Shown in pieces: positions 10,523 through 47,205 of a stretch of DNA of 64,000 nt (positions are counted from its first letter, which is position 1; each line of letters begins with the position of its first letter). The translations under genes and the position numbers were made by a program. The DNA is taken from positions 62,001 to 126,000 of the forward strand of contig WQUV01000001.1 in NCBI GenBank assembly GCA_009781895.1. Direction: 5' to 3'. The stretch is from Candidatus Saccharimonadota bacterium. Lineage in GTDB: Bacteria; Patescibacteriota; Saccharimonadia; Saccharimonadales; Saccharimonadaceae. The notes under the pieces were generated by a model that was given only the letters and a program-made list of their open reading frames with translations, ran no database searches and was not told the origin of the DNA.

Positions 10523-11530
10523 CTATCGGGGGTTTAGCTTAAGATATCGCCGCACCGCCAAATGCGCCGCAATAATCCCAATAAACACACCTAGCAACAG
10601 CAAGCCTAAAGCAATCGCCCACCAGTACTGATATGCAAAATCATAAGTTGGTCCAACCGTCACACCATAATCCTCTAGGTAGCCACGTAAACCACGGAAC
10701 AACGAGAATGCCAAGAGCGAGGTCGCAACCGCCGCAAGCACGCCATAAATCATCGCTTCCATAATGAACGGACCGCGAATAAATCCATGCGACGCCCCCA
10801 CGAGTCGCATCATATAAATCTCCTCGCGCCGATTAAAGATCGCCATACGGATCGTGTTAAAGACAATCAAGATCGCCACACCTATAAATAGTAAGCTCGC
10901 CGCCAGCCCCACTCGCTCCACGAAGCTTGTAGTTCGCGCGATATTGTCAATAATCTCACGCTTTTCGCCCTCGAATGACGGTGGTCGGCTCTCATCTAGC
11001 AACCCACGGACACTCGGATCAGTTCGTATGAACAATTCCACCTCATCAGTGTCTTGCGGATCATATACTTGGATATGCATAATCCATGGGAAGCGGTTCT
11101 GCGCCTCGAATGACGCATCAATCATCGCCTGGTCGTTTTGTGGATCGAGCCTATACAGCTCCATGGCTTCCTCTGGTGAGATCAGCGCCACAGTTCGAAC
11201 CGTATCCAGATCTCGTACTCGCTCGGCCGCAAGCTCAACACGGTCCCGCGTCAAATCATGCTCTAGAAATACCGAAAACGTCAAATTATCGCGTATGTCA
11301 GTCAGGGTATTATTAAGAATATCTCGTGAAATCAGCGCCACCACTACAATCATCAACGCCATAATCATCACAAAAGTCGCCGCAAGCGACAACCATGAGT
11401 TGCGCAAGAACGACTTTATGCCATACTTCATCTGACGAGACAGCTGCAACATCGGCCTCGACTGAGTCTTGGTTAGCGCTTTCAGGTTTCGCTTGTCCTC
11501 TGCTGTCTTCTTTACTTTTCGTCTTGCCAT
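10523..11530 (-). CDS. ftsX: Cell division protein FtsX
   Basis: A 335-residue membrane subunit of the FtsEX complex, which couples the divisome to activation of peptidoglycan hydrolases. After a basic N-terminus it has one membrane helix (about 46-66), an extracellular domain (about 70-205), then three helices (about 208-232, 258-280, 305-328). The family stretch EEIYMMRLVGASHGFIRGPF lies between the second and third helices. The start overlaps the ftsE stop in a TAATG junction, so the two are translationally coupled. Its hydrolase partner is not obvious in the window. Two copies of an unusual intergenic hairpin family exist, and one follows this gene. Confidence 0.9.
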   Translation of the reverse strand: MARRKVKKTAEDKRNLKALTKTQSRPMLQLSRQMKYGIKSFLRNSWLSLAATFVMIMALMIVVVALISRDILNNTLTDIRDNLTFSVFLEHDLTRDRVELAAERVRDLDTVRTVALISPEEAMELYRLDPQNDQAMIDASFEAQNRFPWIMHIQVYDPQDTDEVELFIRTDPSVRGLLDESRPPSFEGEKREIIDNIARTTSFVERVGLAASLLFIGVAILIVFNTIRMAIFNRREEIYMMRLVGASHGFIRGPFIMEAMIYGVLAAVATSLLAFSLFRGLRGYLEDYGVTVGPTYDFAYQYWWAIALGLLLLGVFIGIIAAHLAVRRYLKLNPR

Positions 11531-12222
11531 TATCTCACTACCTTTCCACGCGGCACATCCGCCACCACTTTACCGTCCTCAATGCGCACAGTCCGCGCAT
11601 TCAGCCTATGGACAATCTCCAAGTTGTGCGTAGTGAACAAGACCGTCGTACCGAGGTCGTTAATCTTCTTCACTAGGTCTACAATCTCCCAGGTGTTCTT
11701 GTTGTCCAAATTACCTGTCGGCTCATCAGCAATTAAAATCCTGGGCTGACGCGCCACCGACCTTGCGATAGCAACCCGCTGCTTTTCACCACCAGATAGC
11801 TGTGCTGGGAGCTTATTTATCTTGTCCGCCAATCCTACTAGCTCCAAAACCCGCGGCACGATATTCCGCGTCTCAGCATTAGTATGTCCGGCAATCTCTA
11901 GTGCAAACGCCACATTCTCACACACTGTACGATCTGGCAACAGCTTGAAATCCTGAAAAACCACACCAATTCGACGACGCAGGTGCGGTATGTGTTTCCG
12001 CGACAATGTGTCGTAGTCAATCCCGCCTACCATAATTCTGCCTTTATCCGGCAGTTCTTCACGCGTAATCATCTTTAATAGTGTCGACTTACCAGAACCA
12101 CTCGAGCCCACGATCACTACTAGCTCACGCGGATCAACATGCAAATTCACACTGTCCAGGGCTGGTGCCTCATCTGCTCGCAAGCCACCATATCTCTTAC
12201 TGACATCTTCGAGTGTAATCAT
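11530..12222 (-). CDS. ftsE: Cell division ATP-binding protein FtsE
   Basis: A 230-residue ABC ATPase, partner of FtsX. Walker A GSSGSGKST is at 39-47, the Q-loop at FQDFKLL, signature LSGGEKQR at 142-149 and Walker B ILIADEPTGNLD at 162-173. The length is standard. ATG at 12222 is 7 bases after a TATTAT -10 box, so the operon mRNA is probably leaderless. It runs divergently from ppa. Confidence 0.93.
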   Translation of the reverse strand: MITLEDVSKRYGGLRADEAPALDSVNLHVDPRELVVIVGSSGSGKSTLLKMITREELPDKGRIMVGGIDYDTLSRKHIPHLRRRIGVVFQDFKLLPDRTVCENVAFALEIAGHTNAETRNIVPRVLELVGLADKINKLPAQLSGGEKQRVAIARSVARQPRILIADEPTGNLDNKNTWEIVDLVKKINDLGTTVLFTTHNLEIVHRLNARTVRIEDGKVVADVPRGKVVR

Positions 12223-12229
12223 ATACTCT

Positions 12230-12259
12230 ATAATAACACATTTATACGTATACGTCCAA
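12230..12259 (-). promoter_or_regulatory. ftsEX promoter, leaderless
   Basis: TTGGAC (12254-12259), 18 bases, TATTAT (12230-12235) on the minus strand; 7 bases to the ftsE ATG. Confidence 0.5.
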
Positions 12260-22523: not shown

Positions 22524-23048
22524 TTACGCTCCACCACCCGCGCCGTTGTCGACACAGTATGTACCTGCGCCCTCAAGTGAGATTCGGAACGCTACACGTC
22601 GCGCACCAGCGGCAACTGATCGGACACCTTCACCATGACATTCTGCACCATGGAACACATAGATTGGTACGCAATCTGTAAACGCCTGACCGTCAACTAC
22701 TGTATTTGCTGGACACGGCATAGTGCGTAAAAGCGTAGTTGGCTGGTTCTGCACCGATGATACCGTGAACATAAACGGCTGACCGTTCGGGTCAATGAAG
22801 AAGTCGCTACCGACACGCATGTAAGCAGCAGCAAAAGCGTTCCAGCCATCGTTAGCTGGAATACGACCCTGGTTGTTACCCATGAACTGCTGCACCTGAG
22901 ATGCAACCCTACCTAACTCATTACGGCGCTGCGTATCACGCTGGTTACGCTGTAGTGTTGGGAGTGCGAGGAAGACCATCAAGAAGATGAGACCCGCAAT
23001 CGCCAAGACCAAGACGACTTCAATAATTGTAAAACCTTGTTTTTTCAT
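22524..23048 (-). CDS. Type IV pilin-like protein
   Basis: A 174-residue prepilin. The leader MKKQG is followed by FTIIEVVLVLAIAG, so prepilin peptidase should cut after Gly5 and Glu5 of the mature pilin is present. A hydrophobic N-helix (6-29) continues into an amphipathic helix. The C-terminal domain has four Cys (in PCPAN, TDC, AEC and TYC), able to form two disulfides, and ends in Gly/Ala. No prepilin peptidase gene is in the window. ATG at 23048 follows AAGGAAAG. It is transcribed from its own promoter 158 bases after pilC. Confidence 0.87.
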   Translation of the reverse strand: MKKQGFTIIEVVLVLAIAGLIFLMVFLALPTLQRNQRDTQRRNELGRVASQVQQFMGNNQGRIPANDGWNAFAAAYMRVGSDFFIDPNGQPFMFTVSSVQNQPTTLLRTMPCPANTVVDGQAFTDCVPIYVFHGAECHGEGVRSVAAGARRVAFRISLEGAGTYCVDNGAGGGA

Positions 23049-23078
23049 TTCTTTCCTTGTTAATACTTATTCCCCTAC

Positions 23079-23108
23079 ATAATAACACAAGCGTTTTAAG
23101 TAAGTCAA
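23079..23108 (-). promoter_or_regulatory. Pilin promoter
   Basis: TTGACT (23103-23108), 18 bases, TATTAT (23079-23084) on the minus strand. The rest of the pilC-pilin gap (23109-23205) has a short inverted repeat (TTTCTTG, later CAAGAAA, 23160-23183) and no gene. Confidence 0.6.
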
Positions 23109-23205
23109 GTGTTTCATCTTAATTGAGCGGATCCTCTCTTCAGCCAGACAATCCTCAGCTTTCTTGTGACAAGGACAAGAAACACACCAAAAGATTAGAG
23201 CGTCT

Positions 23206-24405
23206 CTAAACGAGCGAGACGAGCGAGTAGATAGGGAATAATATCGCACCAATCATACCACCTGCCATTACAGCAAGAATCAACATCAAAATCGGCTCAA
23301 TCAGCGTCGAAATAGTTCGCACCAATTCATCCAGTTCTTCCTCTAGTACAGTTGCAGCCTTACCTAACATCTCATCAATCTTACCCGAGCTCTCGCCAAT
23401 CGCCACCATCTGCGGTACGATCGGCATAATATACTTCTGAATCTTCAAGCTATCAGACAATGCTTTACCATTCGCTACGCGCACCGTCGCCTTCTCTAAG
23501 CTATCCTGAACGATCACGTTGTTCACCGCATCCGAAGAAATCTTCAGGCTGTCCACCATTGGTACGCCCGTTGACAAAAGAATCTGACTGGTTCGCGCAA
23601 ATCGCGCCATATAAAGACGCAGGAATAACTGCTTAAACATCGGTACGTTGAGATAAAATAAGTCACGTAGCTCAATTCCTTTCTTGCTTTTTGAGAATTG
23701 GAACATCATGTAGACTATAATACCAACAATGATCAAGACAGCCCACCAATAATTCATCAAGAAGTCAGCAAACGAAACCATGATTTGCGTCAAGGCTGGC
23801 AATGGCTCATTAAGGTCTCGGTAAAGATTCTCAACTTGCGGAACAATCGTAAAGAGCATGAAGCCCATCACGCCAATAATCACCACGATCACAATCACTG
23901 GATACATCATTGCCGAACGAATCTTCGCAAGTACAGCCGCGTCTTTCTCTAACTGATCGGCAAGGCGTTGTAAAGCCTTATCAAGTGTGCCCGAAAGCTC
24001 ACCCGCCTTAATGAGCTCAATGTAGACTTTATTAAAAGTCTTCGGATAGCGCGCCATTGAATTCGCTAGCGGTTCACCTGCATCAACCGAAGTCGTGATA
24101 TCTTCAATCACTGCCTTCATCGCCTTATTGTCAGTCTGCGCGGCAACCGTAGTCAAGCTCTCCGAGAGCGGGACACCCGCGCCAATCAGAGTGGCAAACT
24201 GCCGCGTAAAATTAATGCGATCTTTCGCAGAGATGCGATTAGTGTAACGGTCAAGGAAGCTTGCACCAAACTCTTTGATTTGCCGCGGTACCATATTGCG
24301 CTCAACCAATAGCTTACCAGCTGCCAATTCGCTCTCGGCCTGGATGCTTCCCTTAATTATCTCGCCAGTCTTGTTGTCTTTCGCAACATAGTTATAGCGA
24401 TTCAT
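23206..24405 (-). CDS. pilC: Type IV pilus inner-membrane platform protein PilC
   Basis: A 399-residue GspF/PilC protein, the inner-membrane platform on which pilins are polymerised. It starts YNYVAKDNKTGEIIKGSI as usual, contains two GspF repeats (about 65-185 and 265-390) with the motifs FTRQFATLIGAGVPLSESL and FARTSQILLSTGVPMVDSL, and three membrane segments (about 165-190, 215-240, 370-395). Its ATG directly follows the pilT stop codon, so translation is coupled. Length is normal. Confidence 0.92.
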   Translation of the reverse strand: MNRYNYVAKDNKTGEIIKGSIQAESELAAGKLLVERNMVPRQIKEFGASFLDRYTNRISAKDRINFTRQFATLIGAGVPLSESLTTVAAQTDNKAMKAVIEDITTSVDAGEPLANSMARYPKTFNKVYIELIKAGELSGTLDKALQRLADQLEKDAAVLAKIRSAMMYPVIVIVVIIGVMGFMLFTIVPQVENLYRDLNEPLPALTQIMVSFADFLMNYWWAVLIIVGIIVYMMFQFSKSKKGIELRDLFYLNVPMFKQLFLRLYMARFARTSQILLSTGVPMVDSLKISSDAVNNVIVQDSLEKATVRVANGKALSDSLKIQKYIMPIVPQMVAIGESSGKIDEMLGKAATVLEEELDELVRTISTLIEPILMLILAVMAGGMIGAILFPIYSLVSLV

Positions 24406-25572
24406 CTATTGGAGCGCCCTTTCAAACTCATTGAAGTCAACTGCCGCTGTCCGCGCTACGTCATAAGACACAATACCAGTCTTCACCATTTTTGCTAGCG
24501 TCCGATCCATTGTCTGCATCCCGACGTCGACACCAGTTTGGATCACTGTATCCAGCTGGTGACTCTTACCCTCACGGATAATACCACGTACCGCGTTATT
24601 CGCAATCAGAATCTCACAAGCCGCAATACGACCACCCGCCAACTTCGGCAGAAGTCGCTGCGAACAAATTGCCATCAGAATATTCGCGAGCTGCGTACGA
24701 ATCATCTGTTGCTGTCCTGATGGGAAAACGTCCACCAAACGATCAATCGACTGCGCCGCCGAGTTAGTATGTAGCGTCCCTAACACCAAGTGACCTGTTT
24801 CTGCCAAAGTAATCGCACTCGAAATCGTCTCAAGGTCACGCATCTCACCAATCAAAATCACATCCGGGTCTTGGCGAAGCGCGCTGCGTAACGCCGCAGC
24901 ATATGAGAAGGTGTCATGATGAACTTCACGCTGCGCAATCACCGCACGCCGTGGTGTGTAAGTATACTCAATTGGGTCTTCGATTGTCACAATGTGAGTT
25001 GGTCGCTCGTTATTAATCTTCTCTACCAGTGCCGCAAGAGTCGTCGTCTTACCCGATCCAGTCGGGCCAGTCACCAATACCAAACCACGCGGGTAATCAG
25101 CAAAGTTCTCAATCACCGATGGTACGCCCAGTTCTGCAAAATTCGGGATCCGCGCCGGGATCAAACGTAAAGCCGCCGCTGGCAAGCCCTTCTCATGAAA
25201 GGCATTAATACGAAACCGCGCATGCTCCGCAAAGGCAAACGAGAAGTCTAGCTCACGGTTCTTGTTATAATTCTCATACTGCTCATCAGTCATCATCTCA
25301 CGAATCAAGCTATTCACCTGTTCGAGTGTCAGTCGCACACTACCGATTGGCACCAGGATGCCATCTAAGCGAAAAATCACTGGGCTGTTTACTTGAATAT
25401 GTATATCCGAAGCATTCTTCGAAACCGCCGCTTCCATCAAAGTTCCGATATGCACTTCTTGAACTGCACCACCTTCTTGTGGCACTTGCGTCCCAGCCAC
25501 TGATGGTGGCACAACAATCGTCGGCTCATCCTGCGCTGGTTGCATCACTACCCCACCTGTCCCATCTTCCAT
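24406..25572 (-). CDS. pilT: Pilus retraction ATPase PilT
   Basis: A 388-residue hexameric ATPase that depolymerises pili and drives twitching. Walker A GPTGSGKTT is at 169-177, the Asp box at TIEDPIEY, Walker B VILIGEMRD near 231-239, the His box at ETGHLVLGTLHTN, and the C-terminal QRLLPK. The first 36 residues are an extra Pro/Gln/Val-rich stretch absent from most PilT. The start at 25572 lies 6 bases after TATATT. Presence of pilT suggests retractile pili, in line with twitching described for some Saccharibacteria. Confidence 0.92.
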   Translation of the reverse strand: MEDGTGGVVMQPAQDEPTIVVPPSVAGTQVPQEGGAVQEVHIGTLMEAAVSKNASDIHIQVNSPVIFRLDGILVPIGSVRLTLEQVNSLIREMMTDEQYENYNKNRELDFSFAFAEHARFRINAFHEKGLPAAALRLIPARIPNFAELGVPSVIENFADYPRGLVLVTGPTGSGKTTTLAALVEKINNERPTHIVTIEDPIEYTYTPRRAVIAQREVHHDTFSYAAALRSALRQDPDVILIGEMRDLETISSAITLAETGHLVLGTLHTNSAAQSIDRLVDVFPSGQQQMIRTQLANILMAICSQRLLPKLAGGRIAACEILIANNAVRGIIREGKSHQLDTVIQTGVDVGMQTMDRTLAKMVKTGIVSYDVARTAAVDFNEFERALQ

Positions 25573-25626: not shown

Positions 25627-27192
25627 CTACTGTCGCTCCACATGTGGCGCCGTAATCGTCCACGGTCTCGCTGCCGCTGTGGACGTCGCCTGATGAATCG
25701 TACTGCCAAATTGTTGTCTTGTCGCATCCGCCACGCCTATTCCCCATAAAGTCGTCCCATCCACACTTAATACATACGCATTATCAAATCCCCCCGCCGT
25801 CATCCCTACATTTCCCGCTATATCAGCCATCGACGATAGCCACGGCGTTGTCCTCGTTGTCGTGTTCCCACCAAATAACTCACCAAAATTCGCTCGCCCT
25901 ATTCCATATACATCATTTCCCACCACCATATGAGTAAAGTCCGCCCCCGCATTGATGAACCGCACTCCGCTAATACTCCCTACTCGTACTGGCGTCGTCT
26001 GATTACCTGCACCACCATTAACACCTCGCGCCCGCCCCCAGCCCCACACCTCACCTCGCTCCGTCAAAGCCATCACAAAGCCAAACGCTCCATCACCACC
26101 ATAACTCACCTGACGAATATTTCCCGGTAGACCGCTTACTATGCTCGGTCGACTAGTCGTCGCATTAGACGCCGTAGTATTGCCGCGTGCTAACTGTCCG
26201 TGCGCGTTCGTCCCCCACACCATCACATCACCTCCGTCCGTAATCGCCGCTCCACCGCTCGGACCCTGCGACACATAAACAATATTACCCGTTTCCGTAA
26301 TTCTCGTCGGTCGTGATTGGTTACTCGTGCTGCCCGTCCCCAAAGTGAATCCACCTCCAAACCCCCAGGTATACACATCACCATTCGACCCGAGCGCGCC
26401 AAAAGCACCGCGCGCGCCATCCCCTTTCGACCCAGAAATCTGCCGAAAAGTCACTCCGCTCGGCATCCGCACGATCCATGGCATCGTAGAGTCAAAGATG
26501 CCGCCATCTCCCAGCTGCCCTGCGCTATTACTGCCCCAGCAGTGAGCTATACCAGCACTATTTAACACGCACGACGTATGGTGCGCCGCCGCAATATCTA
26601 TTACCGGCAAGTCATTAAAACGTCTTTGTGGTATCAAAGTCGGCGCCCTAAATGTCGCCGCACTCGCTACGCTACTAGCAATCCCTCGCTGCCCACTCCC
26701 ATTCCAACCCCAAGTCCAAACCGAACCATTTGACCCGAGCGCTAGCCCATGCGATGTCCCGTTCGCGATGTTTATGAACTGCCAAATCACTATACTCATC
26801 GTTATTGGTATCGCCTGCCGCCCAGCAGTATCTTGCACTTGATAGGTAACAGTATAATTACCCATCTCCCACTCCTGCCATCTAATAGGACAAACTACCA
26901 ACACATCCCCACGCCTACACTCTCGCGTAATCCGTGACGTGATGTCGCCATCCATCTCGCTCGTTGCTCGTATCCGCGCATGCATTTGTGCTGGCGTAAA
27001 ATCCGTATCGCCACGAAATATCTCGAAATCTCGATTCGCATTATTTGCAGTCAATTCTGGCCCACCAATCGGCTCAAAGTATCCTTGCCCTTCAATCACT
27101 AATGTGTTCGAAACATCTGCAAAAGCAACTCCCGCACACACCACCGCCAGACACAATATCCCTGCCACCGCTGCCAGACGCTTCGTCTTCAC
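25627..27192 (-). CDS. Secreted RCC1-repeat protein with DUF5011-like domain
   Basis: A 521-residue exported protein. A signal peptide (KTKR, then hydrophobic to about residue 26, AFA) is followed by an Ig-like domain of DUF5011 type (SEMDGDITSRI, then GNYTVTYQVQDTAGR). From about residue 145 come RCC1/BLIP-II beta-propeller repeats, recognised by recurring GxxHGLALGSNGSVWTWGWNGSGQ-like units (about seven, each near 50 residues). Such propellers in bacteria are surface binding domains. The GTG at 27192 is chosen: it sits two bases after the signal peptidase stop with GGGAGGGA just upstream, and gives a proper signal peptide. There is no sortase motif or C-terminal anchor. Confidence 0.8.
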   Translation of the reverse strand: MKTKRLAAVAGILCLAVVCAGVAFADVSNTLVIEGQGYFEPIGGPELTANNANRDFEIFRGDTDFTPAQMHARIRATSEMDGDITSRITRECRRGDVLVVCPIRWQEWEMGNYTVTYQVQDTAGRQAIPITMSIVIWQFINIANGTSHGLALGSNGSVWTWGWNGSGQRGIASSVASAATFRAPTLIPQRRFNDLPVIDIAAAHHTSCVLNSAGIAHCWGSNSAGQLGDGGIFDSTMPWIVRMPSGVTFRQISGSKGDGARGAFGALGSNGDVYTWGFGGGFTLGTGSTSNQSRPTRITETGNIVYVSQGPSGGAAITDGGDVMVWGTNAHGQLARGNTTASNATTSRPSIVSGLPGNIRQVSYGGDGAFGFVMALTERGEVWGWGRARGVNGGAGNQTTPVRVGSISGVRFINAGADFTHMVVGNDVYGIGRANFGELFGGNTTTRTTPWLSSMADIAGNVGMTAGGFDNAYVLSVDGTTLWGIGVADATRQQFGSTIHQATSTAAARPWTITAPHVERQ

Positions 27193-27194
27193 AG

Positions 27195-28286
27195 CTACAT
27201 CCCTCCCTGAGTCACACCAGACACCCAAAGAGTCGGATGCCCAACTAGCGGCAACTTTAGTCTAGTCGTACCAATCACCTCGTCTTCTCTTACCACCCAG
27301 GCATCTGGTGAGCTATTTGCATCGCCTTGAGTTGTAAATTCTAGCTGACCACTCCCATCCTCTTCGATCGCCACAATCCTATGCACCACCATTCGTTCAC
27401 GCTTACTGAACACCAGGACATCACCCTCTACTAAGCTAGCGATTTGCCCGCTGTTCAATTTCTCTACAATTATAAAATCGCCCACATTAATGTTTGGCGC
27501 CATCGATCCCGTCGCCACCGCCAGCGGATAAAAGCGAAACCCCCCGCTAAACAACATCACTACCAAAATAGCCACGCTCGCCAATGCTCCCGCACCAACT
27601 ATTCGCCACGCTTTGCTTGACTGTCTGTGCTTTCTTGGCTCATCGCGTTCCAGTGTCAGCTTATACAACAAGAAATAGCAAACTACTGGGATGAATAAAT
27701 GAGCGCTACTCATCATGAAGTCGCTAAGGTTCGGATAAATCGGCAGAAACATCAGTGGCAATACGGTCATCACTCGATATGCAGTCGTCGCCTGCCATCC
27801 GCCCTTACCAGCCAGGAAAGTCATAAAGATACTACTAAATACCCACGGTAATAAGCCTATAAATACAAACTGCGCCACTCGCAAATTGTTCGCCAAACTC
27901 ATTACCGCAAGCAAAGGCAGCCCACCAATCAGCGTCGCGAGCAACGTCACTACTACCATCATAACTTTGCTTTTACCGCTTTTTCTCAGCAAGCTCACTC
28001 GCATCAATTCTGTCACAATAATCACCAATACCATCGGCAGTAAATTTAGTAAAATATAATTTTCTGGCCTGGCTTGCAACACAAGTCCAACTACTATCCC
28101 TAGCAAAAATTGTAGCGCCAACCAAACCGCACAAATTACCACAACCATAGCTACTATCACACTCTGCTCACGCTGACGCCCTAACTCTAACCCAAAGACT
28201 TTCGCTGTCACAGCTAAAGCTGCAACACTTATTCCTGCTGCCAACCAAATAGTCATCGGCAACCATATAGCTATTATCACTACCAC
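27195..28286 (-). CDS. Signal peptidase I, S26B/SipW type, with membrane domain
   Basis: A 363-residue or longer membrane protein. The N-terminal 235 residues hold about seven hydrophobic helices; the C-terminal 120 form a signal peptidase I domain. VATGSMAPNINVGDF carries the catalytic Ser (about 261) and MVVHRIVAI has His (about 300) where the bacterial type has Lys, so this is the archaeal/ER/SipW class. GDANSSPDAWVV is the later conserved Asp region. SipW enzymes process a few dedicated substrates such as TasA. The flanking TasA-like and DUF5305-like genes support that. GTG at 28286 is a conservative start; the frame stays open upstream to the previous stop and may begin at a CTG near 28346. 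Confidence 0.82.
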   Translation of the reverse strand: MVVIIAIWLPMTIWLAAGISVAALAVTAKVFGLELGRQREQSVIVAMVVVICAVWLALQFLLGIVVGLVLQARPENYILLNLLPMVLVIIVTELMRVSLLRKSGKSKVMMVVVTLLATLIGGLPLLAVMSLANNLRVAQFVFIGLLPWVFSSIFMTFLAGKGGWQATTAYRVMTVLPLMFLPIYPNLSDFMMSSAHLFIPVVCYFLLYKLTLERDEPRKHRQSSKAWRIVGAGALASVAILVVMLFSGGFRFYPLAVATGSMAPNINVGDFIIVEKLNSGQIASLVEGDVLVFSKRERMVVHRIVAIEEDGSGQLEFTTQGDANSSPDAWVVREDEVIGTTRLKLPLVGHPTLWVSGVTQGGM

Positions 28287-28367
28287 AGTGAAGATCCCGC
28301 CTATAATGACGAGTATCTTCCTGCAGTATCTAGTTAGCAGCTTCAGCCTTCCCCCTAAACCTTGAAG

Positions 28368-28967
28368 CTAGTCAACATATGTGATAGTTTGATTACCGAT
28401 AGCAATATCTACCGCGCCAGGTCTGCCGACTGTCGGCACCGCCGCAAGCTCTACCACCACTCGCACTTCCACGCTATCTCCTGCCGCGAGCTCGTCACCC
28501 GCTACAATAGCATTACCATCTGCATATTGAAATATGTATGTGATATTCCTGCATAGCGCATCCGCGAACACTACGTCAGCTGCGCCTTGTGCTGTACACG
28601 TGATGGTTGGTGTATTTAACGTAGAGACAGAAGCCTTTGCCCCACCTACGTTTTCGATCGTCGCCCGTACAGTTGCTGAGCCCGCCGCGCTAAATTGCAC
28701 CATATACGACGCAATAGTTAGTTGGTCTGCACTCACATCCGTAGTAACCGTACTATCAAAACCACCACCCCCAGTCTGGGCGTGAGTCACCGATCCAGCC
28801 TTCCATCGCACCAGCGGATCATTCTGCGTATACTCCGCTCCACCCATAATCGTCAATGTTTGACTATACGCCGCAAACACTACACCACCTATCACCAGCG
28901 CTACAGCCAGAATCCCGACTGCCGCCCATTTCTTATTCACTCTGCTATTTCCATTTACCTTTTTCAT
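28368..28967 (-). CDS. TasA/camelysin-like secreted protein, putative SipW substrate
   Basis: A 199-residue protein with a basic start (KKVNGNSRVNKK), one hydrophobic segment (about 14-32) ending VVFAAYSQ, and a beta-rich Thr/Val/Ala domain with one probable disulfide (CTAQG and LCRN). The segment after the hydrophobic run (SQTLTIMGGAEY) resembles the N-termini of SipW-dependent proteins such as TasA, camelysin and archaeal relatives. It lies directly upstream of the S26B signal peptidase. It could form a surface fibre; this is inferred from context, and similarity is weak. ATG at 28967 follows AAAGG. Confidence 0.6.
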   Translation of the reverse strand: MKKVNGNSRVNKKWAAVGILAVALVIGGVVFAAYSQTLTIMGGAEYTQNDPLVRWKAGSVTHAQTGGGGFDSTVTTDVSADQLTIASYMVQFSAAGSATVRATIENVGGAKASVSTLNTPTITCTAQGAADVVFADALCRNITYIFQYADGNAIVAGDELAAGDSVEVRVVVELAAVPTVGRPGAVDIAIGNQTITYVD

Positions 28968-29022
28968 AATTACCTTTCTTGCTTCATTCTACTCACTAAA
29001 AACACCACGTTTACTCCATCCC

Positions 29023-30132
29023 CTACCTCCCCTTCTTTGTTTTCTTCGTCGACAACGACCGCTTCCAGTGTGGAGAGCCGTACAAGAACACATGCTCCCT
29101 CTCTACCACCGCGTATGCTGTCCTTCCGCTCGGCATCTCAAAGTAGAGAATGTTCTGCATCACGCGATCCGCCTTGTCTACCAAATCCTCAAATTCTTCC
29201 ACTTCATAGGCATACTTATAGTCACTCCTCTTCAGCGGCGTCTTTAGGTCCACTATAATTCGCCCATATTCTTTATGTATCTTCATGTCATATCGCTCGC
29301 AAGGATTCTTCGGTCGACGCTTATACTTTATATAAAATATTATAATTACAATTACCGCCGTCATTACCGACATGCCACTCAATATTACACGACGCATCGC
29401 CGCTCCGTCTTGCTCCGCACCCATGAACACTAATAAATCCTCTTGGTCTGGCAGCCTCCCTAACCGCACACTATAAGTCTGCTTCGCGAGCGGCACCACG
29501 AAACCTAAATTAATCTGGCGACTAACCGAACGCTCATCATCAGTCTTAGCCACCAAATCTATTCTCATATCAACTTCCAGTATCGCCTCTCCTGCCAGTC
29601 CATTGTCGACCATAAACTGAATCGCCTGCTGATTAAACTCTTGGAAGTTTAATCCGTAAGTCTCATTAACAACTAGCATGCCAGCGCCCCTATTTAAACC
29701 CCTAATCTCATCTTGCAAAACAAACTGCTGATTATATATTTGCCGCTCCCGGTTTTCCCGATCAAACACAATCACCCGCCCCACAATCGTGTACGAATAT
29801 TTGTACTCTAGCGGTTTATCCGTAGAAAGCTCGTAGTTGAATTGTAGATTGATCGTATCGGTCAGTAGCGATAGATATTGTCGCCCCGCTGGCTGACATC
29901 GCTCATCAAAGAACACATTTGGCAACAAGCAAACCTCGTAACTCTGATCTACCATATGTCGCGCCGATAGGTTCATCGCCTCGTACATCACCGCCTGACT
30001 CGGTTCATTCAGCGCCCAGCTTTTGTAGTTCAACGCCCCAGCCAACACCATAATAGCCCCCACAAACAGCGCCCGTCGCCAAGGCCGATTGCGTCTCCTA
30101 GTCTTTACTCGCCAGATACCTCTATATGCCAT
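29023..30132 (-). CDS. DUF5305-like membrane protein
   Basis: A 369-residue protein with a basic N-terminus, a membrane helix (about 22-42), an extracellular domain of about 200 residues, a second helix (about 252-272) and a basic cytosolic tail of about 95 residues. The ectodomain pattern (EYKYSYTIVGRVIVFDRENRE, later a GLNFQEFNQQAIQFM helix) resembles DUF5305, a family that neighbours SipW-type signal peptidases in archaea and Firmicutes. It is the first gene of the four-gene island. A TATGTT box ends 5 bases before the ATG. Function unknown; a chaperone or anchor for the neighbouring secreted protein would fit. Confidence 0.6.
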   Translation of the reverse strand: MAYRGIWRVKTRRRNRPWRRALFVGAIMVLAGALNYKSWALNEPSQAVMYEAMNLSARHMVDQSYEVCLLPNVFFDERCQPAGRQYLSLLTDTINLQFNYELSTDKPLEYKYSYTIVGRVIVFDRENRERQIYNQQFVLQDEIRGLNRGAGMLVVNETYGLNFQEFNQQAIQFMVDNGLAGEAILEVDMRIDLVAKTDDERSVSRQINLGFVVPLAKQTYSVRLGRLPDQEDLLVFMGAEQDGAAMRRVILSGMSVMTAVIVIIIFYIKYKRRPKNPCERYDMKIHKEYGRIIVDLKTPLKRSDYKYAYEVEEFEDLVDKADRVMQNILYFEMPSGRTAYAVVEREHVFLYGSPHWKRSLSTKKTKKGR

Positions 30133-32202: not shown

Positions 32203-32231
32203 TTGCAATATAACGTAAGTGGGTATATAAT
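32203..32231 (+). promoter_or_regulatory. Promoter of the VirB6-like gene
   Basis: TTGCAA (32203-32208), 17 bases, TATAAT (32226-32231); 10 bases to the ATG at 32242, so the leader is about 4 nt. Confidence 0.65.
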
Positions 32232-32241
32232 ATTATCAATT

Positions 32242-35200
32242 ATGCATAAGCGATTTGGGCGAAAACAGTTTCGGATAAAACGGTTCAGTAAACTACCGGT
32301 TGTATTGGGTGTCACCGTCCCTATTTTCACTCTCGCTGCCCTTGCTACCGCTCATTTCGCTATACCTCGAGACGCTCAAGCATCCGCAACCATCGCAATC
32401 ACCTGTCGTCGAGCCAATAGTGCCCTTACTGACAGCGACTGCGCTGGCCGATCTGTACATTTCAACCATAATGGGAGCCCAGTCGACCGTGGATGGAATG
32501 GTCAAGCTGGCAGGTCAAGCATCCAGACTGGTAGCAGTGGGCTACAGGTGCGCACAACAGGCGGGCTTGGCTGGGCAATCATTAGTACACCGCCAGGGGT
32601 AACTCTCAATCCAATCACTGGTGCTGTTGGTACGGCCAACACTAATGTCGGAGTAACCGTAGGCGCAAATCCAAGACTCGGCGAAGGACGCGATGGCGTC
32701 CTCACATTTAGAACTGGGCAGCACGGCCCCACTGCCTCCATAAACTTCTCTCAAGACGGGGGGCTGTGTCCATCTGCAGGCGCAATGGTCGGCGGCACAC
32801 GCTGCTTGATGGACCTCCAGTCTCGAGGAGTAATTGCTAATAATACTAGATTTAATATGCCAGCACATGGCGGCGATCTAGACTTCTTCATATATCATGA
32901 CCCTCTCTTTTCTGGCACAACAGTAGATTCTCAGCGCCCTAGTCTTGGGAATGGTTGTGATAACTGGACCATAAGTGCACCAAGCGCTCTTGCTAACCGC
33001 ACTTTTCGCTCAACCATTACCGCTCCACAAAACGATGCCATCGGCACAAGAGCCTGCACAATTACTGTAGGCTCTCGGAATTTCTTTATCGATCAACCTC
33101 GGTTTACATCCCAACTACTGACTCTTGACAACACCCCGACAGTCAATCTCGACCGCACTGCCGGCAGCACTACTACCACTACCATCCGACGAAGAATCGG
33201 TGGCGGTGGCTGGACCCCAACCGACAACTTCACTATCGTCAGCACGACAGCAGTGCCTGGGACTCCTAACTGCGACTGGCTGACCTCGGACAGACAGGGA
33301 ACCAATCTTGTTCTCAGCACTGCAACTGGTCCCGCGGGGGCTAACAACAACCTTAGCCCCCGCCAATGTCAAGTCAGAGTCAGGCAACTTGACCCTACTA
33401 TCAATCCAGAGGCAGCCTACTGGAACGTCATCGTTACACAACAGGGTACCGACAACATCCAAGCGCGGATCGAGCCATCAGACCTAATATTCACTGCCGA
33501 AGGCGACGCTCGAACCTTTGATTTTCAAACCCGTGAAGGCGACGCTGGCACATTCAGCAATACTGTACCTGCACCGCTCTCACCTAACCCAGTATCTATC
33601 ACCTTTGGCGCTGGCGGCACCGGATGGGCTAGATTCACCAGGACCGGAAGCTCTATTACGCTTACTGTCGACCCGAACGACGGACCAGACGAACGCACCG
33701 CCACACTGAATATTATGTACGGCGGCGTCCTCCGACCTTTCGATATCAGACAATTCCCTGAAATTATCGCTGGTCCTGGTAGCCCAGACGGTGGCGAAGG
33801 CGAAGCCATTGAAGTAACCTGCGACCTCGGCCCGCTTGGCTGGGCGCTTTGTCCTATTATTACAGGCCTTAACGACATGCTTGGCAGTATGTATGGCTGG
33901 CTTGAAAACAATTTCCTGCGCATGGAACTCAGCTTCTATGACACTGACACTCCCACACATTATGCATGGGGGACCTTCCGTAATATCGCCAACGTCCTCT
34001 TCGTTATCTTCTTCCTTGTCGTTATCTTCTCTCAAGTCACCAGTATTGGTATCAGTAACTATGGCATCAAGAAGATGTTGCCAGAAATTATTGTGGCGGC
34101 TGTTCTCATCAATCTCTCCTTCTTTATCACTCAGGCTATGATTGATCTCTCAAATATCATTGGCTATCAGATCCACCAGCTACTCACTGGCATTGCCAGC
34201 CAAATTGGAAACATACAATTTGGTGCAGGCGAAGGAGGGCTCCTGGGTACACTTGCCCTGATCTTGGGTATAGCTGGAACAGTCTCAGTCGTTGGCATGG
34301 TTTTAACTGGTGGATTCGGCGCACTCTTCGCAGTAGCAATGATATTCTTAATTTCTGCATTAATTGCTATTGTCATGCTGTTCGTTATATTGGTCATGAG
34401 GCAGGTTGGCATAATTATCCTGGTTGTAATCGCACCACTTGCTTTCGCTGCCCGCATCCTACCTAACACCGCCAGACTCTTTAATTCATGGTGGAAGATG
34501 TTTGTGTCCCTGCTCGTCGTTTATCCTGCCTGTAGCCTGGTAATTGGTGCTGGAGTATTGGCCGGAACCATCATTACAAATGGCGTCGTACTCAATGAAG
34601 ACGCCAGTGCCGCCGACCAAATTAGAGGTATAGCCGGTATGATTGCGATGATTGCACCTTACTTCGCAGTCATTACTATTATCAAGGGTTCCCTCGGAGG
34701 CCTCGGCAAGATCGGCGCCATGGTCACAGGCGCCGCAGTAGGCGCTGGATTAACCGCTAAAATGATGAGTTCCCGCGCCGCGAACTACGGTGGTAAAAAG
34801 ATTAACGAAGGATATGGCCACGAACAACGCCTCCAGGCCAAAGCTGCTGCTGCCAAGGCTAAAGCAGATAAGAAAACAGCTGAACTTACCGCAAGCGCAA
34901 AATATGGCAAAGGCACGTTCGGCAAGCTCCAACAAGCTCAATCCGAATTTGACCAATACAGAAGCGCGGCTGAAATGGCAAGTGCCAGCGAGTACGACGG
35001 TGAGACAGTCACAAAGCAAGGACGACAATGGGCTGCCATTAGTCGTGACGGCGCTATTGAGCTAGGAAAATATAAAGAGGGCGATATCAACTATGATCGC
35101 GATTTTGCCGCCGAAGAAAAGAAAGCTCTAGACAGCGGATTATCTGCTACGGCTGCTAAGGACAAGGCCACCAGCAAACTTGCTAATAATCGAAGGATTA

Positions 35201-36216
35201 GTAGTAAGAATGGTGGTGTGTATCAAGTAGGTGACGCTAGCTATGACGCCGACATGCGGAAAGCTACATCAATGCCTCCAGGTGCTGCGCGCAATAACAG
35301 AATAAAAGAAATCGAAGAAGCAGCCTCAATGAGTAGTATGGCAGCTGGTACTTACTCACCTGGTAGCGCAAATTATGTTAGAGATCTAGCAGCTAATAGC
35401 GGTGTTGAAAGCAAGTTAATGAAGTCAAGGCGCGAGCAAAGTGCAAAAAATGCCGTTCACCCAGATGCTCACTCCCGAACTAACCGACGCGCTATCGCCC
35501 AGACCGCTATCAATAAGCGCGATGCCGAGCAAGGCAAAGAAGCCGACTTGGCTCTATCAAGCATGAATACGGCATCAGCCCAAGGTTACGGCGCAGATGC
35601 TATCGCTAACGGAGACTATATTAAAGCCACTCGTGCAATCGCGAAACTTCAGTCGGACGGGAAAGTCGACGAAGCACGTCGCCTCACTCAAGACTATACT
35701 TCATCAGGCATTGGTGGTGTCCGTGGACGTTCTGCTCTTGGACAGGTTGGCAAGAATAAAGAAACCAAAGCTGATGCCTTCGGAGACTACGCCTACTACA
35801 AGTACATAACTGAAAACCCAGACAGTACCGGGACAATTGATGAGTACTATGCTGGTGCCGGCGAGTTTGCGACAAATGGCAAAAGCTTTGCAGATGACGT
35901 TGCCAGTGGCAAGTATACTCACTCTTATGCAACCATGGATAACGACACTGCTAAGCATATTGCTACCGCTGACGCTACCGGCGATCAGGCCGTAGCCATG
36001 CTCAGCCAGATGGATGCCCAGAAAGTCGGTCAGCTTGGAGAGCAGAACTTAATCGACCTTATGCGCACAGCAGATGCACGCGCCACATCCGACCCAACAT
36101 TCGCTACACACTACAACACTATTCGCGACACCATCCGTGATAACTACCGCGATGCTGGCGCAAACGCTGCTACATTCGGCTATACAGCTGGCATGAAGAG
36201 TAAGTTTGGCATATAA
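32242..36216 (+). CDS. VirB6/TrbL-like T4SS channel with BACON-like ectodomain
   Basis: A 1324-residue membrane protein. A basic start and hydrophobic segment (about 15-45) resemble a signal anchor. Residues about 50-520 are a Cys- and Thr-rich ectodomain of four or five repeats ending in strands such as ASINFSQDGG, FFIDQP, VIVTQQGTDN and FDIRQ, the pattern of BACON-type Ig-like domains. A hydrophobic block (about 545-845) with at least six helices matches the VirB6/TrbL conjugation channel. The tail (about 850-1324) is hydrophilic, helical and Ala/Lys-rich, with three YxxGxxxYxxD repeats. Its 30-kb distance from prgI-virB4 is notable. FemAB follows after 15 bases. Confidence 0.75.
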   Translation: MHKRFGRKQFRIKRFSKLPVVLGVTVPIFTLAALATAHFAIPRDAQASATIAITCRRANSALTDSDCAGRSVHFNHNGSPVDRGWNGQAGRSSIQTGSSGLQVRTTGGLGWAIISTPPGVTLNPITGAVGTANTNVGVTVGANPRLGEGRDGVLTFRTGQHGPTASINFSQDGGLCPSAGAMVGGTRCLMDLQSRGVIANNTRFNMPAHGGDLDFFIYHDPLFSGTTVDSQRPSLGNGCDNWTISAPSALANRTFRSTITAPQNDAIGTRACTITVGSRNFFIDQPRFTSQLLTLDNTPTVNLDRTAGSTTTTTIRRRIGGGGWTPTDNFTIVSTTAVPGTPNCDWLTSDRQGTNLVLSTATGPAGANNNLSPRQCQVRVRQLDPTINPEAAYWNVIVTQQGTDNIQARIEPSDLIFTAEGDARTFDFQTREGDAGTFSNTVPAPLSPNPVSITFGAGGTGWARFTRTGSSITLTVDPNDGPDERTATLNIMYGGVLRPFDIRQFPEIIAGPGSPDGGEGEAIEVTCDLGPLGWALCPIITGLNDMLGSMYGWLENNFLRMELSFYDTDTPTHYAWGTFRNIANVLFVIFFLVVIFSQVTSIGISNYGIKKMLPEIIVAAVLINLSFFITQAMIDLSNIIGYQIHQLLTGIASQIGNIQFGAGEGGLLGTLALILGIAGTVSVVGMVLTGGFGALFAVAMIFLISALIAIVMLFVILVMRQVGIIILVVIAPLAFAARILPNTARLFNSWWKMFVSLLVVYPACSLVIGAGVLAGTIITNGVVLNEDASAADQIRGIAGMIAMIAPYFAVITIIKGSLGGLGKIGAMVTGAAVGAGLTAKMMSSRAANYGGKKINEGYGHEQRLQAKAAAAKAKADKKTAELTASAKYGKGTFGKLQQAQSEFDQYRSAAEMASASEYDGETVTKQGRQWAAISRDGAIELGKYKEGDINYDRDFAAEEKKALDSGLSATAAKDKATSKLANNRRISSKNGGVYQVGDASYDADMRKATSMPPGAARNNRIKEIEEAASMSSMAAGTYSPGSANYVRDLAANSGVESKLMKSRREQSAKNAVHPDAHSRTNRRAIAQTAINKRDAEQGKEADLALSSMNTASAQGYGADAIANGDYIKATRAIAKLQSDGKVDEARRLTQDYTSSGIGGVRGRSALGQVGKNKETKADAFGDYAYYKYITENPDSTGTIDEYYAGAGEFATNGKSFADDVASGKYTHSYATMDNDTAKHIATADATGDQAVAMLSQMDAQKVGQLGEQNLIDLMRTADARATSDPTFATHYNTIRDTIRDNYRDAGANAATFGYTAGMKSKFGI

Positions 36217-41043: not shown

Positions 41044-44000
41044 CTAAAATCGCCGCCGTTTACGTAATGCGAAGCATCCGACCCCTGTCGCTATAACTGC
41101 TCCTAGGCCACCAAAGACAGCCGCCACTACCACTCCAGACCCAGCCTCAAAAACCCCCGTATCTGGTGCATCTATATCAGTATCACCGCCTCCACCGTTT
41201 TCGCCACCACCACTATCACTTACTAAAATTACAGCACTTTGACTACCCAAACTACCCACACCAGCATTCGCATCCGTCGCTGTAATCGTAATCTGCCCCA
41301 ATCTAGTTGGCGTATATGTGAATGTCATGCCGCTCGGCATATCAGGGCCATTTACGCCCGTCCAGTCAAGCTCTGTAAATATAATGGTGGTCGGCATAAA
41401 CTCACCATTTGCTGTCGCATCTGTTAAGTTAAATGTCAGCTCACCCTCAAACAACCCGTTAGGCGTGATCGTAAATGTCGTAGGCTGCCCTAGCTCACCC
41501 ACTGCCGATGTCGGTGTCAGGGTAAAACCGTCTGCCAATACATATACTACCATCTCCTGACTACCTAGAGCGCTCGCCACAGTAACCACATGCCGCCCTG
41601 GTGCTGTCGGCGTAAATGTGAACGTCTTTGCTATGTCCACATTGTCTGTCGTCGCATACTCGCTAGGTGTAAAGCTTAAATTATTAGGGCTGAAGTTTCC
41701 CGCTCCCGTCGAGCCTAGGCTAAATATTCCATCAAACACCGCATTAGGCGTGATAGTAAAGGTCACTACATCACCCACCCGCATAGTCCTCTGCGCATCT
41801 GATGTCATGGCAAAGTCATTCGCCATGATCGTCGTCACCATATTTGCTGTTGGCAATGCTCGACTACCAGGTGCTGTCTCTGCTGTTATTGTAATATGAT
41901 TTGAGCTTAAGCCCGCTGGCAAAGTAATCGTAAAGTCGCACGACGTCGTATTAGTTGTCGCATCATAGTCACTCAAACCAAATGTACAGAACTCGCTGTT
42001 CGCCACCAGCGTCGCACCAGGAATCGCTGCCCCAGTCGCCGTGTCCCGCACCGACAAGTCCACCGTGCCGACATATGGCCCATGGATATTTAGCGTGAAC
42101 AGCCCGCTCATCGCACTGCCCAGCTGGATCGACTCTGGCCCAGTCAAGCTCATCGACTCTGCTAAAGTCATTAATCGCACCGTTTCCGTCCCTAAGCTCG
42201 AGGTAACCGTCACAATACTTTCACCAAAATGCTTTGGCGTGTAGATAAAGGCCTGACTCGGTCGCGTGGTCTGATCATTCGGCCAGTCATTCGCTGAAAA
42301 GTTCACTACTGTACTACTAAATATTCCATCGCCGTGATCATCGCTCAAGCTAAAGTTGCCCGCGAACAGTCGATTCGGCTGAATCGTGAACGTATACGGC
42401 GTATCTAGCGTCGCATCTAGAACCTCTGCAGGTGTTACCGTAAAGGCGTTAGCTAACACCGCCACGTCATGCGTATCCTGATCCGTACCATCATCCGAAC
42501 GAATCTGCACCCAATTACCCTCAAAAGTCGCTGGCAATGTGAAAATGAACGTACAGGTCGTCAGGCCTGTTGCTGCATCCATGTCGCTATTCGTAAACGT
42601 ACAGCTCGATCCACCTTGGCTAGTCGTAATTGTCGCTCCACTGATTTCTGTACCTGCAAAGTTATCCCAAATCGAGAAATTCACCACGCCATTAAACTCA
42701 CCTGGAACTGTATATAAATATGTGCCACTCGTCTGCTCCCAGACAATAGTGTTCGGTCCACCAATCGCTGGCGCATCATGCACGTGGATCTCGATAATCT
42801 GCGAGCTCATTGCAATGCCACTATCACTCGGTATCGGCGTCACCTCGATACATACTCGACCAGCGCTTTGTGGTGTGAATGTGAAATCCTGACTGATCGG
42901 ATCCTGACTGCGATCCGCTAAAAACTGTAAGTAAGTATAAGTAATTGTGCTCGTATCAAAAACCCCATTAAATCCTGCTGTCGCCATACACCCATTGCCC
43001 GACGGAACAATCGCCATCTGAAACTGTCCGTCAAACATCGCATTCGGCGTGATAGTAAATGCAATAGGATTATTAATCTTTTGGTTTTGCAGTTCTGGTC
43101 CTGGTGTTACTGTAAAGTCACTAGCCACTAACTCAACACCAGCCACGCCAACAAGCGGCGACGAGAATATCTCTACTGTATTCACATAGCTCACCGCTGG
43201 GTCAATCAGCGCTGTAAAAGTGAAGTTACACGAAGTTGTATTAGTCACTGGGTCCCAGTCCGCTAGCGTAAAGGTGCATGAAGTCGGCGCGATATCATGT
43301 AGTGCATTGCCTGCAATCGGCAACGAACTATCAATATCAATCGTCCCTTCATATGGCCCATTTAAGGTCAAAGTGAAATTACCAGTCTGTCCACGCACTA
43401 CCCGACTCGGTCCAGTAATTGTCGCCTCATTCGCCATAACCAACAATGTCACCGTCTTTGTATCCAAGCTCTCTGCACCTACTGGCACCGCCACACCAGT
43501 CCGCGTCGCGTCAAACGTCAACGTGATTTCACCTGTCTCTAGCGGTACATAGGTCACACTTCGTGTTTGCGTGGTTTGGTCATTAACTGCTGGCCATTCT
43601 GCCTGCGATACCAAGATTCGAGTCATCGGCGTAAAGAAGCCTCTCGCCCCACCATCATCAAAACTGTAGATGCCCGCGAACAACGCATTTGGCGAGAAGG
43701 TGAACATCAACGGTGTGCCGACTGTCGTTGTGATCACATTTGCCGTTACATCCGCCCCCTCAAACAAGATCTCGTAATCATCAGCGATAATACCAATCAC
43801 TTTCGATGCGATATTTAACCCAGGATCGCTCGGCACTAACGCCCGCGCTTCAAAGTAATTATATCCCGCAAACACATCGACCGTATTGTTTGGCGCATTG
43901 TCCGCCATGCATGCTGTCGTTGTGTTCGTTACTGGGTCCCACATACTATATGTCACCACGCATTCAAATAGACCGCCACCTAGACTCGTCACATTTGTGC

Positions 44001-47000
44001 CCGTAATCATTGTATTTGTCACCAGAGTCGAAGTTGTGCCATCATTTCGCCAAATCCCAAACTGGATCGCCCCCTCATATGGCCCGTTCAGCACAAACGA
44101 AAACCTTGGCGAAGTCGGCGCGTCATCACGCGCGATAAAGTCTGGTCCCAAAATCTCCAAGTCATCCGCAATCACATATACCGTCATAGTAAACACGTCA
44201 CCTACGTTAATACCGCTCGGTCCATCAACCTCAATTACTGTCGCGGTCAAAGTCTTGATGCCTGGTGTTGCCGGCGTATACTCAAAGTCAAACTCGTTAC
44301 TATCTGAATCCCAAGACGCAATACCGCCATCACTAAATAGACTATTTGGATCACCGTCACTCAGCTGCACCCTGCCCGTAAACACACCGTTTGGTCGAAG
44401 CATGTAATCCTGTAGTTGTCCAACCCGTGCTATCTGACAATCTGGCGAAGTCGGCGCACAGTAGAAGTCAATATAGTCTGGTACCACTGTGATAATAGCC
44501 CAGTTAGTATCACCTGTAGTTGTATTCTCGCCCACAACTCGCACTCGTGACCACTCATTCGCTAGCACGCTCGGTACAGTATAAGTAAAGGTTCGGACAA
44601 ATGTCTCACCCGTGCAATCCGTCCCGCCATTGCCGCCACAGAACGCGTAAGTTCGCCCGCTCATTGTCCCGCTCGGATTACTTGTCGAGCCTGAAGTATC
44701 CGTAAACACCCCATCACCCACCGCAACATCTGACATTCCAATCATAATATCGCTCAAGTCAATCTCAAAGCCTGTATTACCGTCTACACCCGAATAAGTC
44801 AGCGTACAATCAACGCTCTGCCCACGCGCCGCATGATCTGGCGTACAGATAATTGATATGTGCGACTCAATCACGAGGAATGAGATCGAAGCATCCGCGA
44901 TCACTGGTCCACTACTTGTGCCAGAAATCGTATGGACACCATCATCGCCCACTACATTCGGTGTGTAGCTGAAGTTCGTGTCCGCACCCGAACCATTAAA
45001 CTCGATATCAAAAGTCGGTGTCTGTGCACTTGCACCACGACTAAATAGCCCACCCTGCTGAGCTACACCACCTACCACCACACTACTATCTAGCGTGATT
45101 GTACCAAAATACGGCGCGTTAAAAGTAGAGATATTAAATCGCGTTCCACAACCCAAACATGTATGCGCGCCACTCGGCAAGCCAACTTGCGGCACATCAA
45201 TTGATACAATTTCGTAAGCTTGAGCCAGTAGCCCGACTGAAACCATATTCTGCGAACCAGTCAGCATCGGTGTCGCATTCGCTGTGATTACTGGCCAGAA
45301 TACCGAATAGCCGTTCGTCCCATCAAACTGATTATCCATAATCCACTGCCAGCTTGGGCTGGTGTAGACAAAGCTCAGTGTTTGATCAATAATTTCTGTT
45401 GTATTTTCAATAGTCGTCGTAAACACTCCGCCAGCAAATCGCGCATCATCACTAGTAAATATACCACCAAGCATGTCAACCGAACCTATGTCCATAATGT
45501 CTGCCAGGCTAATCGTCCCCTCATATGCACCCTGCAAGATGATTCGACAAGGCAACGCTGCCCCTGGTGTCACAAATGTATTCTGCACCCAGTCGCTACC
45601 ATCATAGCACTCCATAGCAAAAGTTCGCGCCAAGACATTCACCATAATGTCAATCCGACCATTATCAACATAGCTATTACCCGAATCAGCAATAATCGTA
45701 ATTTGTCCACGGTAATCTTCTGGAGGCGTGTAATTAAACTGCGCTAAACGCGTACCATCAAAATAAATCTGATTACCATTCTGGATATAAGTACCGCTAA
45801 ACGTCCCGCCGAGACCACCATCAGTCAAGGTCACCCAGCCTGTATAGTTATAGTCGAGACTAATCACGTAGCTACCACCACTCGTACCTATCGAAGTCGG
45901 GCCAGTTATTGTCAAGCTATCTGTAAACGTGAATCCATTCGCCAAAATCGACGTCACACCCGCCACCGTCACTGCCACATCCGCCAAACCCGCGCTATGC
46001 GCTGGTGTCACACAGGAAATCTCAGTGTCGCTAACAACCTGCATATCCTGACAGCCCAAACCACCAATAGTCACGTCAACTGCAAGTAGTGTCACTCGAG
46101 CAAAACCATTTCCTGACTGCCCTGTCTGCGTACCACCACCTGGTGCTGGCATCGTACCAATCGGGCTACCATCAACTGTCGAGGCATTAGATAAGAGTTG
46201 AGTATTATTTAGCAAGAAGTTCCCGCCAATTACCGAGCTATTAACATTGCTTGTCGCGGTAAAGACAAAACCCGAACCACCACCACCAGAGAGTCCGCCG
46301 CCGCCGCCAAACCAACCGCCGCCGCCGCCAGAAGAATTACCGTTAGTTAATGAACATTGCGCAACACCCGTGCCAAATGTACCCGTGCCTGTACAGCCCG
46401 AGGCATTATTCGCGCCTCCGATAGTCTGCGTACCTGCACCGCCACCATACGTACCCGTACTCATTAATCCGCTCGCACCGCCACCCGCACCGCCTGGGAC
46501 CGCGCCAAAGTCGTTGCCTGCCGCACCGCCGCCGCCGCCAGCTACAATCGCCCGCGCGTAAAGCGAATTAATGCCAATTCGGATATCTGTCGCACCACCA
46601 CCTGAGGCCGTCTCGTGACCATTACCATTGTCTGTGCGATAAGCTCCGCCACCACCATTGAAGCCACCTGGCCACGGTGAGGTTGAGGTTCGTGACGCCT
46701 GTGTACCCGCACCGCCGACACATATATAAATAACAGTCCCAGCGGTCAAACGCACGTCACCCACCGAGTATCCACCGCGCCCACCAACATTCGTATTCGC
46801 ATTACCACCTTGCGCCCCCCAGGTCTCAAGTCGGTAAATACCATCCTGTGGCACCGTCCATGGCTGGCACGCACCAGTATAGCTAAAGCTTACACCTGGA
46901 GCTTGAGTGTAATCCGTAAAACCACTACCTGTGATAGTTACACGGTCACCGCCCAGGCTCGTACCACGGTTCGGAGTTACACCAGTAATCATGTTCGCTG

Positions 47001-47148: not shown

Positions 47149-47205
47149 AAACCATAACCTCTTGCTTATGCTTATATACAGCATAACACAAAGAGAGAAC
47201 GAAAG

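Follow-up and report, generated by a model that had tools for sequence, protein, structure and literature searches.

Four tightly packed genes on the minus strand (30132-25627) of a 64,000-nucleotide stretch of DNA from a Candidatus Saccharimonadota bacterium, the whole of which is called the window here, encode a DUF5305 membrane protein, a small secreted protein, a long S26B signal peptidase and an RCC1 propeller protein. Judging from their sequences, we consider it fairly probable that these four genes constitute one dedicated, sortase-independent route for a TasA/AbpX-like surface fibre, with the RCC1 propeller as its binding head. As far as the literature that we searched shows, the cassette is real, conserved and undescribed in Saccharibacteria: nothing relevant joining TasA or SipW with these bacteria was found, in a search whose limited coverage does not make this a proof of absence. 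For host recognition and attachment in ultrasmall epibionts, the explanations given so far are chiefly type IV pili, together with a small number of adhesins. To these the cassette would add another candidate filament, one that is genetically compact and divides the labour between peptidase, partner, subunit and cap.

Gene organization and host genome

The source genome (678 kb, 14 contigs, 98.8% complete) has MAGs labelled Candidatus Saccharibacteria as its nearest named relatives, and these presumably come from termite guts, as read from their isolate codes. The bacterium itself is tiny and is probably attached to other bacteria. The original prediction placed three adjacent genes at 27195-30132, and all three are present there on the minus strand (Table 1). 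In the order DUF5305-subunit-S26B-RCC1, the genes are separated by 55 nt, about 27 nt (measured to the CTG start proposed below) and 2 nt. We count the RCC1 gene in the set because its start lies 2 nt beyond the stop codon of the peptidase and its leader is shared with the subunit; its proposed position as last gene of the route is borne out by this common leader, which was recovered with a profile search of the whole genome. Promoter or terminator signals exceeding the shuffled background were not found. Elsewhere in the window, 32203-36216 and 41044-47184 encode very large proteins, membrane-bound or secreted, of 1337 and 2046 aa. The former has no match in NCBIfam and looks like a membrane component of type IV secretion.

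Table 1. Genes of the cassette, with window coordinates and main sequence evidence.
Feature	Position	Strand	Evidence
DUF5305 membrane protein, 369 aa	29023..30132	minus	PF17231, 43.5 bits (cut-off 29)
Secreted fibre-subunit candidate, 199 aa	28368..28967	minus	Family profile, AF2 model, 34-member alignment
Long S26B signal peptidase	27195..28340 (called start GTG 28286; probable start CTG 28340)	minus	TIGR02228, 71.1 bits
RCC1 propeller protein, 521 aa, proposed cap/adhesin	25627..27192 (GTG 27192)	minus	PF00415 and PF25390 above cut-off

The long S26B signal peptidase

The assignment of the peptidase to S26B is confirmed, with scores above the cut-offs of TIGR02228 (51.85) and PF10502 (30.9 bits versus 22.9). 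Ser261 and His302 are invariant in alignments of 10 saccharibacterial and 17 mixed S26B homologues, and the Lys of bacterial-type signal peptidases is unconserved in the homologues aligned. On this basis the enzyme carries a Ser/His catalytic dyad in place of Ser/Lys, as had been proposed. Its description as SipW-type holds for S26B membership and fails for standard SipW: it scores 54.8 bits with the SipW equivalog model NF046067, below the cut-off of 190, and a hydropathy count predicts eight transmembrane helices ahead of the catalytic domain, compared with two in short S26B enzymes. SipW is a small enzyme with one transmembrane helix on either side of its catalytic domain. By sequence, the cassette enzyme is a long eight-helix S26B and not a standard SipW. 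Its membrane domain contains invariant E93/R96 and P182 (17 homologues aligned), and no Pfam family matched the N-terminal domain consistently.

The true start of the gene probably lies upstream of the called GTG, at a codon that is neither ATG nor GTG, namely CTG 28340. This is proposed because the profile match continues past the GTG for 33 bases in the upstream direction (genome position 90319, window 28319) and because the in-frame codons in this missing part complete the first transmembrane helix (KILVIIGGIFTVVVIIAIWLPM), behind a basic stretch. The sequence GGGGGAAGG sits six bases ahead of CTG 28340. Such a start escapes ORF callers restricted to ATG, GTG and TTG.

Distribution and history of the cassette

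To search the genome collections for the peptidase we used a profile made from four closer S26B members. Among 61 near relatives, the peptidase is found in 11 and DUF5305, above its cut-off, in 10, and all ten coincide; the eleventh peptidase genome (G058) has a short S26B. The lifestyle thus does not depend on the cassette, which only 10 of these 61 genomes have. Of 393 genomes from the order, 30 have DUF5305, 29 the long S26B and 29 both (hypergeometric p=4e-43), the thirtieth DUF5305 genome being G112, outside the 29 that are shared. In two of the 29, G185 (L146) and G259 (L147), the peptidase frame is interrupted or split, through decay or sequencing error, whereas DUF5305 is intact. In a search across the phylum (380 genomes), four members of the window's own family were the only genomes with DUF5305.

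The expectation that the cluster would be conserved in relatives is well supported. In 44 of 46 distinct cassettes DUF5305 is beside the peptidase, and 42 of the 46 have one to five subunit genes on the same strand, with up to five paralogues in tandem; all exceptions, lacking DUF5305 or a subunit, are at contig ends. This count used a subunit profile from which the 25 loci L143-L167 had been left out, and no match was obtained with reversed-sequence controls (0/1173). DUF5305 was never found beside the short two-helix S26B loci.

The cassette is present in Saccharibacteria and in low-GC gut Bacilli. In a tree of 44 long peptidases the nine copies from Bacilli are not monophyletic: well-supported branches force four or more changes between the groups, and a topology with all of these copies in one clade is rejected by the AU test (p=1e-42). 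These phylogenetic data suggest that the cassette has probably moved between Bacilli and Saccharibacteria more than once. Contamination or a binning error as the source of the Bacilli copies is unlikely, because the GC content of their contigs (25-30%) differs from that of the saccharibacterial contigs (39-56%) and their gene content is Bacilli-like. We also considered a mobile element or a defence system. This reading is without support: the plasmid search gave no DUF5305 match and peptidase matches confined to the catalytic domain, a single partial match to the catalytic domain came from viral contigs, and PADLOC gave none.

The DUF5305 partner

PF17231, the basis of the original DUF5305 assignment that the window protein clearly upholds, is matched by all 16 homologues tested. 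The AF2 model (pLDDT 79.4) gives a transmembrane helix at 17-42, an extracellular long-strand beta-sandwich at about 57-215, a second transmembrane helix at 243-271 and a cytoplasmic alpha/beta domain at 277-355. The outer domain resembles Ig/LEA14-like sandwiches, the best Foldseek match being 3but (E=2.5e-4, with low TM-scores). In G112, a single 721-residue protein (L166:6613-8778) has an S26 domain and, C-terminal to it, a DUF5305-like part, and this natural fusion argues for joint action of the two. Given the strict pairing with the peptidase and the G112 fusion, DUF5305 is most likely an obligate membrane partner of the long peptidase, and we infer that it retains the subunit after cleavage or passes it on.

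Alternatively, DUF5305 might be a regulatory or sensory protein that perceives the fibre or the host through its outer domain and signals through its cytoplasmic one. Two transmembrane helices joined to a conserved cytoplasmic alpha/beta domain would suit such a protein, and so would the orphan DUF5305 genes that flank a glycan cluster in G001. The near-strict pairing with the long peptidase and the S26 fusion fit assembly or processing better, and a sensor therefore seems unlikely to us. The orphan genes, with no S26B nearby, are L042:1644-2663 and 10740-12236 in G001, on either side of a glycosyltransferase/flippase cluster, and L043:1014-2078 in G002. Our literature search found no paper naming DUF5305, within a coverage limited enough that publication elsewhere is possible. 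The cassette provides this unknown family with a first functional setting.

The 199-residue subunit family

The small protein has a leader helix (residues 12-35) and the segment FAAYSQTLTIMGGA. As a single sequence it finds nothing in Pfam, NCBIfam or the PDB, so that a family profile was required. Subunits of both phyla (34 sequences) align over the leader, the motif YAAxSxxLxIxG and a sandwich with PGDxxT...NxGxxxA. The 34-member profile (A7) matches AbpX in PDB entries 9sj2 (E=9.1e-7) and 9rhp (2.3e-5), and an 18-member profile matches an AbpX entry at 0.0015. Solved TasA is matched weakly by the subunit profiles, at E=0.23 and 1.4. The TasA/camelysin models NF046066 and PF12389 do not match the 199-residue protein and have weak matches in 1 and 2 of the 18 family members, respectively. 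According to these profiles, the family is homologous to the donor-strand fibre subunit AbpX, and the 199-residue subunit resembles AbpX more closely than TasA and is not itself a TasA. The original label of TasA-like must thus be narrowed to the AbpX match, the relation to TasA proper being weak.

The AF2 model (pLDDT 79.5) consists of the leader helix and a beta-sandwich, at 53-198. The putative donor strand, at about 31-46, is the conserved strand motif directly after the leader; the model leaves it unplaced, with residues 41-47 poorly positioned (pLDDT below 50). A significant structural match was not obtained: Foldseek returned nothing below E=0.001, TasA was absent from the top 50, and the top ranks, all non-significant, included donor-strand pilins, FimG with its donor strand and the AAP filament.

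The weak TasA match, the non-significant Foldseek result and the fact that fibres are unseen would all suit a secretion set without any fibre. The peptidase would then free the 199-residue protein as a surface protein, either soluble or forming a coat, the RCC1 protein would be a separate receptor and DUF5305 a secretion accessory. We regard this as improbable, in view of the profile homology to the fibre subunit AbpX, a conserved strand just past the leader in 34 proteins, tandem arrays of as many as five paralogous subunits, and caps that repeat the subunit domain. A fibre remains our preferred reading.

The RCC1 protein and other caps

The RCC1 protein is made of a SipW-type leader with the strand that follows it (GVAFADVSNTLVIEGQG), an Ig-like segment and RCC1 repeats (domain score 88.8 versus a cut-off of 21.7). 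Searching the whole genome with the subunit profile gave two loci only, the 199-residue gene (1.3e-44) and the RCC1 leader with its following strand (3.7e-4, profile positions 9-44). A second RCC1 protein of the same genome (664 aa, L201:4538-6532, G000 contig 3) has no SipW-type leader. In relatives, a large protein with the same leader as the subunit often lies beside the peptidase; RCC1 caps adjoin the cassette in L044, L045, L048, L049 and L054, and other modules are found elsewhere. In many caps, among them the RCC1 proteins of L048 and L049, the leader is followed by a complete subunit-like domain. The alignment shows that the RCC1 protein of the window's clade is without this domain and passes from leader and strand to the Ig-like part and the repeats.

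PilX2 of Nanosynbacter lyticus, which has an RCC1 propeller, is needed for normal host binding (PMC12206443): the wild type was reported to bind 10.6% of hosts and the PilX2 mutant 4.6%. By analogy, a host-binding role for the window's propeller is plausible, since the PilX2 propeller serves this function. The same analogy raises the question of whether the RCC1 protein is a PilX2-like type IV pilus adhesin that neighbours a three-gene system by chance. Prepilin, PilC/GspF and PilT genes indeed follow directly downstream on the same strand (22524-25572). However, the subunit profile, applied to the whole genome, picks out the RCC1 leader, and in the five relatives with an RCC1 gene beside the cassette no pilus genes are listed in the stretches concerned. 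The RCC1 protein also has no TIGR02532 match and no class III prepilin motif (GFxxxE), unlike the prepilin at 22524-23048; this last point is not decisive because PilX2 itself has no predicted PilD leader (PMC12206443). Taken together, a pilus adhesin is very unlikely, and we retain the RCC1 protein as the fourth member of the cassette.

Several other caps deserve mention. A Hint (intein-like) module with an invariant CL..GT is found in those of L052, L055, L056, L065, L149, L154, L158, L163, L165 and L167, in saccharibacterial and Bacilli genomes, and its profile matches 6tmm, the structure of an intein-like domain from bacteria (E=1.6e-5). It would be unusual for a fibre cap to process itself through such a module. 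In a cassette subtype (L036, L037, L038, L143-L145, L147, L148 and L152), a leader-bearing protein of 266-275 residues is encoded between the subunits and the peptidase; that of L036 has a weak CBM2 match. The cassette offers a testable set of caps.

Proposed mechanism

Structural work on related fibres provides the frame for our proposal. The N-terminal residues of TasA that follow the leader are the donor strand (PMC9674648), TapA starts TasA fibres through its N-terminal strand (PMC10151520), and ABPx of Pyrodictium abyssi is a donor-strand-exchanged fibre like TasA and ABP (PMC11952670). The cassette most likely works like these TasA/ABPx systems, and we infer for it a sequence of leader cleavage, donor-strand assembly, capping and host binding. 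The 199-residue and RCC1 proteins would be exported through Sec on their special leader, and the long S26B would cut both precursors just before the conserved strand (A-x-x-S-x-T-L-x-I-x-G). The freed N-terminal strand of a subunit could then insert into the groove of the next one, so that a fibre grows by donor-strand exchange, while the outer beta-domain of DUF5305 may hold the cut subunit or hand it over. Because it has kept the strand and lacks an acceptor domain, the RCC1 protein may complement one subunit and end the fibre, a role that we liken to that of TapA for TasA. Its propeller would be displayed for binding, with the host cell as a plausible target.

A broader proposal is put forward tentatively, as something possible and less probable than the route itself. 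The eight-helix S26B and DUF5305 might form a membrane platform for assembly, on which leader cleavage is coupled to growth of the fibre by donor-strand exchange and which accepts interchangeable caps (RCC1, LamG, or fn3 with a self-processing Hint). Passed between gut Bacilli and Saccharibacteria, it might provide epibionts with a host-attachment fibre besides type IV pili.

Comparison with known systems

Among the closest parallels are the Bacillus tapA-sipW-tasA and sipW-calY operons and Clostridium sipW-bsaA, which likewise combine a dedicated S26B with one or more small leader-bearing beta-sandwich proteins, independently of sortase, and which also have an accessory protein sharing the leader of the subunit. 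In contrast to these operons, the cassette peptidase has eight transmembrane helices, is paired with DUF5305 and fails the SipW equivalog model; compared with the Bacillus operons, no TapA homologue was found in the cassette, and its caps are modular (RCC1, LamG, fn3/Hint). Archaea provide two further comparisons. Among the bundling pili AbpA/ABPx of Pyrodictium, AbpX is the best solved-structure match of the subunit family (E=9e-7); ABPx is a donor-strand-exchange fibre, and its similarity to the cassette subunit is distant and drawn from the subunit sequence alone. The haloarchaeal plasmid loci also have an S26B amid several proteins with SipW-type leaders. The archaeal parallel of the original prediction therefore holds for the leaders and not for DUF5305, which was not found among the neighbours of S26B tested on three plasmids. 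The last comparison is with PilX2, the type IV minor pilin of Nanosynbacter lyticus, likewise a saccharibacterial, filament-displayed RCC1 beta-propeller with an atypical leader and a part in host binding. Unlike PilX2, the propeller described here, without a class III prepilin motif, is carried on a SipW-type leader within a TasA/AbpX-like cassette.
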